From positions 1 to 64,000 of the forward strand of contig CACMXJ010000003.1 in NCBI GenBank assembly GCA_902617625.1: a stretch of 64,000 nt of DNA. The letters are read 5' to 3'. A program made the translations under genes and the position numbers. The notes below the pieces were generated by a model. The model was given only the letters and a program-made list of their open reading frames with translations, ran no database searches and had not been told where the DNA came from. Each line of letters begins with the position of its first letter. Position 1 is the stretch's first letter. The DNA is from an uncultured Pelagibacteraceae bacterium. GTDB taxonomy: Bacteria > Pseudomonadota > Alphaproteobacteria > Pelagibacterales > Pelagibacteraceae. Of this stretch, positions 5,285-8,391 are shown piece by piece.

Positions 5285-6283
5285 TTAAGTGTTTTTTTGG
5301 ATTAAAGATTTTAATAAAAATATATGATCATCGTTATCATTCAAACACGGCACCATATCAAAGTTTTCTCCACCAGACTCTAAAAAGCTCTCTTTTCCTT
5401 GAATTTGGATTTCTTCTAAAGTTTCAACACAGTCGGAAGAAAATCCCGGGCATATAGCTAAAACATTTTTTTTACCTTCTTTAGGTAAATTTTCTAAAGT
5501 TTTGTCTGTATAGGGTTGAAGCCATTTCTCAGGACCAAATCTAGATTGGAATGTTGTCTTAATTTCAACTGAGGTAAACTTTTCTGATATTAGTCTCGTT
5601 GTCTTGTGACAATAGCAATGATAAGGATCGCCTTTATCAAAATATTTTTGTGGTATTCCATGATAAGAAGCTAATATCAAATCCGGCTTCCAATTTATTT
5701 CTTTGATTTTCTTATTCAAAGAATTTACAAGCGCTTCTATATATAATGGATCCGACTCATAATGCGGCACTATTTTTAGAGATGGCTGCCATCTCATTTT
5801 CATAAGAGTTCTATATACTTCGTCACAGACAGTTGCAGTGGTTGCCGCGGCATATTGAGGATAAAGTGGGAGAATTGTTAAATTTTCACAACCCATTTCA
5901 TGAAGGGTTGCTATTTTGCTTTTTATGCTAGGATTTCCATATCTCATTGCGTAATCAATTATTAAATTTTTTTCAGATATTAGGTTTGAAAGTTTTTCTG
6001 CTTGCTTTTGTGTATAATATAAAAGAGGAGAAATGTTTTTGTCTTTCATCCAAATTTCTTTGTAAGCTTTGGCTGTTTTAGATGGCCGAAAGGTTAATAT
6101 AAAAACATTTAATATGATTTGCCAAATTATTGGATTAACTTCGATTACTCTTCCATCCGATAAAAATTCTTTTAGATATTTTCTTATATCAAACCAACTT
6201 GTTGAGTCAGGTGTTCCAAGATTAATAATTAAGACTCCAGTTTTTCCAAAATTAACCGGTGGGTGTTCTACTTTTTTTTCCAT
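5285..6283 (-). CDS. hemH: Ferrochelatase
   Basis: 332 aa; GVLIINLGTPDS, SYHGIPQKYFDKGDPYHCYCHKTTRL, FQSRFGPEKWLQPYTD. Confidence 0.97.
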   Translation of the reverse strand: MEKKVEHPPVNFGKTGVLIINLGTPDSTSWFDIRKYLKEFLSDGRVIEVNPIIWQIILNVFILTFRPSKTAKAYKEIWMKDKNISPLLYYTQKQAEKLSNLISEKNLIIDYAMRYGNPSIKSKIATLHEMGCENLTILPLYPQYAAATTATVCDEVYRTLMKMRWQPSLKIVPHYESDPLYIEALVNSLNKKIKEINWKPDLILASYHGIPQKYFDKGDPYHCYCHKTTRLISEKFTSVEIKTTFQSRFGPEKWLQPYTDKTLENLPKEGKKNVLAICPGFSSDCVETLEEIQIQGKESFLESGGENFDMVPCLNDNDDHIFLLKSLIQKNT

Positions 6284-7284
6284 TAATAATCCTTTACGGT
6301 TTTTACTAAGTAATCCATCATATTAGGGTCCGTTTCTGGAAGAACGCCATGCCCTAAATTAAATATATATGGATGATCTTTAAATATATCCAAATATTTC
6401 TTTGTTTCTTTTTTTAAGTTTTCTTTATTAGAAAGTAAAACTTTTGGATCCATTCCACCTTGAACAGGAATTTTTATTTCTTTATTAATTTTTGTTGGAT
6501 CAACCTCATAATCAATACAAATTGTGTCCGGTTTTATAATTTCACAATAGTCCTTATAATTTCTAATACCTCTTGGAAAGCAAATAACAGGTATATTTAA
6601 AGATTTAGTGTAATTAACCAAGCTTAGAGTGGGGTCATAGATATAATAAGGTAAATCTTTTTCTTTTAACAGACCAGCCCAACTATCAAAAATTTGAATT
6701 ATCTGAGCACCATTTTCAATTTGATTTTTAATGTGTATTTTTAAAAATTTATCTAAAATTTTTAGAACTTTATCAATTAAAAATTTGTCCTCGAAAAAAT
6801 TTTCATTCAAGCTTAATTTTGGTGATTTTTTATTAATCATATAAACTAATAAAGTCCACGGTGCTCCGACAAAGCCTATAGTAGTTTTATTTTTTGTAAA
6901 TTGGGAGCTACTAACTAATTTAATTAATTTATAAATAGGAGATAATTTTTCTACAAATTCAACTTCTTCAATATTCGAAATTTCTTTTAAGTCTAAGTTA
7001 CCAAGTAATGGGCCAAAATTTTTTTTAAATTCAACGATTTGGTTTAAACCATATGGTAACATTAAGATATCAGAAAAAATAATTGCTGCATCCAAATTGA
7101 ATCTTTTTAAGGGTTGTAAAGTGATCTCACTTGATAATTTTTCGTTAAGACATAATTTAATAAAATCAGGATTTTGTTTTCTTATTTTTCTAAATTCTGG
7201 TAAATATCTACCAGCTTGTCTCATTATCCAAATAGGATTAATATCACTTTTCTTGTTTATTATTACTTCTTCAATTGGAGACAT
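6283..7284 (-). CDS. hemE: Uroporphyrinogen decarboxylase
   Basis: 333 aa; PIWIMRQAGRYLPEFR, FSDILMLPYGL, NLGHGVLPETDP. Confidence 0.97.
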   Translation of the reverse strand: MSPIEEVIINKKSDINPIWIMRQAGRYLPEFRKIRKQNPDFIKLCLNEKLSSEITLQPLKRFNLDAAIIFSDILMLPYGLNQIVEFKKNFGPLLGNLDLKEISNIEEVEFVEKLSPIYKLIKLVSSSQFTKNKTTIGFVGAPWTLLVYMINKKSPKLSLNENFFEDKFLIDKVLKILDKFLKIHIKNQIENGAQIIQIFDSWAGLLKEKDLPYYIYDPTLSLVNYTKSLNIPVICFPRGIRNYKDYCEIIKPDTICIDYEVDPTKINKEIKIPVQGGMDPKVLLSNKENLKKETKKYLDIFKDHPYIFNLGHGVLPETDPNMMDYLVKTVKDY

Positions 7285-7347
7285 ATTAATGATTAAATAT
7301 AATTAATTGTAATGTTAGTATATTCTGTGAATAATGGTGATTATATT

Positions 7348-7360
7348 TATTGAACATTTT
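7348..7360. repeat. Left arm of 13 bp perfect inverted repeat TATTGAACATTTT in putative oriC
   Basis: Reverse complement AAAATGTTCAATA occurs exactly at 7518-7530. Confidence 0.9.
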
Positions 7361-7517
7361 ATAAACAGTTTATTAACATTTAAGATTTTAATTTTAATAA
7401 ATATATACACAAAATTGAAGCTTATTAACTAAATACACCAAATGATTACTGGAGATTTTAACATGTTTAATTTTGTTAATAAAAGCATTGTTTTACAACA
7501 TAAATTTTAAAATATGG

Positions 7518-7530
7518 AAAATGTTCAATA
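7518..7530. repeat. Right arm of 13 bp perfect inverted repeat AAAATGTTCAATA in putative oriC
   Basis: Reverse complement of 7348-7360. Confidence 0.9.
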
Positions 7531-7566
7531 TGATAAAAATAGTACAAATTTATACACATATTATAC

Positions 7567-8391
7567 ATGACTAACTTATATCAAATTTATCTTATATCAG
7601 ATGCAACTGGTGAAACTCTTGATCGTATTTTTATAGCTATCAAAGCTCAATTTAAGAATATAAATTATAAAATACATACATATTCTTTTACCAGAACAGA
7701 AAATCAAATTATAAAAATTTTAGAGAGCGCAGAAAAGGAAAAAAATTCAATAATTTTATACTCCATTGTTGATAGTAATCTGGCAAAATTTCTTGCAAAA
7801 AATAGTGACATGAAAAAAATTCCATGTTTTGGAGTGTTAGGCGATTTAATATTAAGTTTTTCAAAACTTTTAAATCAAAAAGCCTCACACCAACCAAGTG
7901 GACAATACGCTCTTGATGAAGAATATTATAAAAGAATTGAAGCAATTCAATTTACGATGAACCATGATGACGGAAATCTTGTAAAAGGAATAAAAGAGTC
8001 TGATATAATTTTGTTGGGAGTAAGTAGAACAAGTAAGACCCCAACCGCAATCTTTTTAGCTAATAAAGGTTTTAAAACATCCAACATACCCTTAATAAAT
8101 GAAAATTCTTTACCAGAAGTTTTAAAAGAAAACCCTAAAATCTCATGCATTATTGGATTAAATACTGAGCCAGAAAGGCTTGTGGAGATTAGAAAAAACA
8201 GGATGAATTCTCTTAAGGAAAATAAAAATAAATTATATACAAATTTAGAACAAATTAAAAAAGAAGTAGATATGGCAAAAAATACTTTTAAAAAATATAA
8301 ATGGCCATTCATCGATGTGACACGAAAATCTGTAGAAGAAACCGCAGCTTCTGTAATCAAAATATACGAAATATATAAAGAAAATGCCTAA
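7567..8391 (+). CDS. ppsR: Pyruvate, phosphate dikinase regulatory protein / kinase-pyrophosphorylase (DUF299)
   Basis: 274 aa; YLISDATGETLDRI, GVSRTSKTPTAIFLANKGFKTSNIPLI. Confidence 0.95.
   Translation: MTNLYQIYLISDATGETLDRIFIAIKAQFKNINYKIHTYSFTRTENQIIKILESAEKEKNSIILYSIVDSNLAKFLAKNSDMKKIPCFGVLGDLILSFSKLLNQKASHQPSGQYALDEEYYKRIEAIQFTMNHDDGNLVKGIKESDIILLGVSRTSKTPTAIFLANKGFKTSNIPLINENSLPEVLKENPKISCIIGLNTEPERLVEIRKNRMNSLKENKNKLYTNLEQIKKEVDMAKNTFKKYKWPFIDVTRKSVEETAASVIKIYEIYKENA

Follow-up and report, generated by a model that had tools for sequence, protein, structure and literature searches.

A hemE-linked candidate replication origin with an 11-bp phased row of DnaA-like boxes in a Pelagibacteraceae (SAR11) genome

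The window analysed here, a 64-kb stretch of DNA from an uncultured Pelagibacteraceae (SAR11) bacterium, contains a 282-bp intergenic gap (7285-7566) at which the direction of transcription changes. The minus-strand block ends at 7284 with hemE (uroporphyrinogen decarboxylase, 6283-7284, minus strand; TIGR01464, 307 bits against a cut-off of 303), and the plus-strand block begins at 7567 with ppsR (DUF299/COG1806, a PPDK-PEP synthase regulator, 7567-8391, plus strand; NF003742, 298 bits against a cut-off of 225). The gap is 83% A+T, which is above the genome average (the genome of the congener G082 is 29% G+C), and it is the largest non-coding gap of the window. Two larger apparent gaps in a crude gene map were discounted, given the ORFs inside both, and no other true divergent gap in the window exceeds 105 bp. 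The first-pass annotation had reported an AT-rich gap of 282 bp at this minus/plus flip and had named several sequences within it; the gap, the sequences and their coordinates are all confirmed.

Close to the flanking genes, the gap also carries conserved elements that are distinct from the boxes described below. An A/T element at 7309-7320, located 25-35 bp upstream of hemE on the hemE strand, is likely part of the hemE promoter, situated inside the origin. At the other end, a conserved TTATACATG at 7561-7569 spans the ppsR start codon, 11 bp past the rightmost DnaA box, and may be either an additional weak box or a promoter element.

The gene context is that of a known class of alphaproteobacterial origins. 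The experimentally mapped Caulobacter origin is flanked by hemE and a DUF299 gene and carries CtrA and IHF sites (PMC1914354). The first-pass annotation had noted that the origin lies beside these two genes in Caulobacter, Rickettsia and other alphaproteobacteria, and both flank the gap here. Like the hemE/COG1806 origins of Caulobacter crescentus (Cori) and Rickettsia prowazekii, the gap is rich in A/T and contains several DnaA boxes between these flanking genes, whereas those origins exceed 400 bp and the SAR11 gap is shorter, at 282 bp (PMC1914354). We assign the gap with high confidence to the hemE-linked class. In the listed genomes of family f2 of the same order (e.g., G091-G099), no match to ppsR was found, while hemE was found in most.

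Six boxes that match, or resemble, the DnaA consensus TTATNCACA are found in the gap. The two perfect boxes lie near its edges: the left one reads TGTGAATAA at 7326-7334 (minus strand, where it is TTATTCACA), and the right one reads TTATACACA at 7550-7558 (plus strand). Between them, three DnaA-like boxes, TATTGAACA (array box 1, 7348-7356), TTATAAACA (array box 2, 7359-7367) and TTATTAACA (array box 3, 7370-7378), follow one another on the plus strand in exact 11-bp steps, so that the second and third lie +11 and +22 bp from the first. A further TTATTAACA, at 7474-7482 on the minus strand, is oriented opposite to the array. Both the number of perfect TTATNCACA sites in the gap (2, against 0.07 expected; P about 0.002) and the number of sites within one mismatch of it (6, against 1.3 expected; P about 0.002) are well above expectation.

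The conservation of these boxes was examined in orthologous gaps extracted from 155 Pelagibacteraceae loci (some of which represent the same contig counted twice), and in a divergent subset of 74 loci with pairwise identities below 85%. Most of the 155 loci have a gap of 279-285 bp (full range, 261-292 bp), so that gap length is nearly constant even though the identity of ppsR drops to about 65% across the loci. Length differences other than multiples of three argue against a hidden gene. In a position-by-position test of the divergent subset, the six conservation peaks are the six boxes, each kept, with no more than one mismatch, in 66-88% of the 74 loci, whereas the median at other positions is 1%. 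The left perfect box heads the list of conserved 9-mers and is the most conserved 9-mer of the gap (one mismatch or fewer in 88% of divergent loci), a frequency shared by the opposite-strand box at 7474 (88%) and followed by that of the right perfect box (80%). Array boxes 1, 2 and 3 are retained with at most one mismatch in 70%, 66% and 77% of divergent loci, respectively, and with at most two in 92%, 96% and 95%.

The spacing of the array is also conserved. Across the related gaps, same-strand boxes 11 bp apart were observed 50 times against 3.5 expected, and those 22 bp apart 44 times against 4.5 expected; overall, same-strand boxes set 10, 11 or 22 bp apart are some 10 to 14 times as frequent in the gap set as in shuffles. 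Of 151 congeneric genomes, 12 contain the triple-array pattern, each a single time, and none contains it in reversed form. In all seven of the genomes in which ppsR was also located, the pattern falls inside the hemE-ppsR gap. The array spacing of E. coli is likewise an 11-bp repeat (a 9-bp site plus 2 bp). The phasing in SAR11 is what would be expected of DnaA oligomers lined up head to tail along directly repeated boxes, as in the left and right arrays of E. coli (PMC4285127; PMC10316083). The E. coli origin, as described in the 2011 work cited in PMC4285127, resembles the SAR11 gap in that a regularly spaced same-strand row of weaker boxes has strong boxes near its edges. The SAR11 gap differs in having just three array boxes and one box on the opposite strand, in its flanking genes, and in its weak boxes, which are TTATNAACA-like.

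The first-pass annotation had missed the three-box array and had instead described a symmetric architecture, in which a 13-bp inverted repeat (TATTGAACATTTT, 7348-7360; AAAATGTTCAATA, 7518-7530, minus strand) enclosed an "almost pure A/T" core; the layout is in fact that of a box array, and the core between the 13-mers measures 82% A+T. It had also suggested that the 13-mer is a second, possibly lineage-specific motif paired with the DnaA boxes. A paired motif recognised by an origin-specific protein would accord with the exactness of the 13-bp match, the sole such pair in its own genome. However, an inverted repeat of at least 13 bp was reached in 5 of 150 first-order Markov shuffles (about 3%), and the longest inverted repeats in related gaps follow about the same distribution as in shuffles. 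The left arm is accounted for as array box 1 plus TTTT, and in relatives it takes the form NNNNNAACATTTT, running on into the array. The right arm varies freely: it is kept only in the closest relatives and is probably non-functional. It holds no DnaA-like box, and none is conserved at its start (one mismatch or fewer in 0% of divergent loci). When the conservation of the 13-mer was assessed, as the annotation had proposed, the exact left arm was kept in just 13 and the exact right arm in just 7 of the 155 loci. Given its chance-level length and the poor conservation of its right arm, the 13-mer was rejected as a lineage motif, and a second, paired recognition function is most improbable.

The conserved words could alternatively be promoter or regulator sites in what is merely a divergent hemE/ppsR promoter region, with DnaA acting at most as a transcription factor. 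The two genes are indeed divergent, two promoters inside the gap could account for part of the conservation, and the conserved element at 7309-7320 resembles a hemE promoter element. Nevertheless, six DnaA boxes with 11-bp phasing are unexpected for simple promoters, every other true divergent gap in the window is far shorter, and the region of the GC-skew minimum and the highest genome-wide box density coincide at this gap, as detailed below. We consider a promoter-only function very unlikely.

The genome itself is assembled in 27 contigs; the whole-chromosome evidence comes from two closed congeners, G082 (fully read) and G012 (about 80% read, with missing stretches interpolated). In G082, the region of the cumulative GC-skew minimum extends over approximately 880-943 kb and spans the gap, at 910.4 kb; the maximum lies 686 kb away in a circle of 1.44 Mb, and is thus nearly opposite. 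In G012, as read and interpolated, the picture agrees, with a minimum plateau at approximately 1.22-1.30 Mb, the gap at 1.262 Mb, and a maximum near 0.62 Mb. The minimum is a broad one, of about ±30 kb, and the gap falls within about 30 kb of the shift in both congeners. The GC-skew and DnaA-box checks suggested in the first-pass annotation both favour the gap, which ranks first in the window for DnaA-box clusters and is, in G082, the densest cluster genome-wide of sites within one mismatch of TTATNCACA (7 in 300 bp). Over the stretches of G012 that were read, only the hemE-ppsR gap has two perfect boxes within 300 bp, and a rival cluster near 1,324.4 kb has 6 sites within one mismatch, one more imperfect box than the gap. 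This cluster (about 1,324,393 on C1), with six DnaA-like sites in 300 bp, lies on the ppsR side of the gap, about 62 kb away, and could be a DnaA-titration site or a product of chance.

The breadth of the skew minimum also bears on the idea that replication begins elsewhere near it, for example at dnaA, and that the gap is a cluster which titrates DnaA or serves regulation. E. coli is known to carry DnaA-binding clusters outside its origin, and the distance of dnaA from the gap is itself conserved: in the seven closed congeners (G012, G082, G212, G213, G216, G217 and G218), dnaA is always 61-64 kb away and on the hemE side. Against this stand the position of dnaA off the skew minimum in G082 and G012, the two genomes examined, the lack of a top-ranked box cluster at dnaA in the whole of G082 and the part of G012 that was read, and the gene context of the gap, which is that of the proven Caulobacter origin. 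An origin at dnaA or another nearby site is accordingly hard to credit.

Synteny, congener GC skew, genome-wide box density and box conservation together support the proposal of the first-pass annotation that the gap is oriC. On this sequence evidence, chromosome replication in this Pelagibacteraceae bacterium very probably starts in the 282-bp hemE-ppsR gap. This location matches established knowledge, so the surprise is modest. No description of a SAR11 oriC was found in the literature searched; what is added here is the box-level map and the 11-bp phased array for SAR11, the location of the origin itself having already been expected.

An intact DnaA is encoded in the genome, and a scheme of initiation can be proposed from the arrangement of the boxes. 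DnaA would first bind the two strong boxes, TTATTCACA (7326) and TTATACACA (7550). An ATP-bound DnaA oligomer would then spread cooperatively over the weaker same-strand boxes at 7348, 7359 and 7370, with an additional opposite-strand box at 7474. These oligomers would destabilise the A/T-rich DNA at approximately 7380-7470, leading to helicase loading, and the 13-bp inverted repeat would have no separate role. The A/T-rich middle of the gap (7380-7460), which has low column conservation, is a candidate unwinding region (DUE); nearest-neighbour stability profiles gave no consistent minimum.

The regulatory sites of Caulobacter are another point of difference. The SAR11 gap, unlike the Caulobacter origin, contains neither the TTAA-N7-TTAA CtrA site (0 in 7285-7566) nor the IHF consensus WATCAANNNNTTR, although the latter is that of E. 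coli and may not apply here; three HU/IHF-family genes are present in the genome. Three OmpR-type DNA-binding regulators were found (PhoB, a ChvI/CreB-like protein and a degenerate winged-helix protein), and CtrA is not among them. Because the assembly is 92.6% complete, the absence of CtrA is likely but short of proven. A CtrA-controlled origin was rejected, as the gap is without the site and CtrA was not found in this 92.6%-complete genome. At least one TTAA-N7-TTAA is present in 43% of the 74 related gaps, compared with 21% of shuffles, and since this is somewhat above chance, a regulator with that preference may exist elsewhere in the genus. CtrA sites are usual but not universal in hemE-linked origins, being absent in some Wolbachia and Ehrlichia (PMC1914354), and their absence is therefore not taken to exclude the gap from the class. 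We tentatively suggest, as a possibility somewhat short of an even chance, that the SAR11 origin is CtrA-free and hemE-linked, that the repressor layer usual in alphaproteobacteria is gone, and that timing is set by DnaA filling the 11-bp-phased three-box array.

Few cell types in the ocean are more abundant than SAR11 bacteria, and methods that derive growth rates from origin-to-terminus coverage depend on the true origin. At least one such tool, GRiD, assigns dnaA-bearing fragments to the origin (PMC7852909). With dnaA 61-64 kb from the origin in closed congeners, coverage tools that equate the origin with dnaA would be slightly off. The box-level map opens the way to direct tests of initiation control in a streamlined bacterium that is apparently without CtrA. 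If the suggested mode of timing is true, the CtrA-free three-box array would amount to a simplified switch for initiation in the most abundant bacteria of the ocean.
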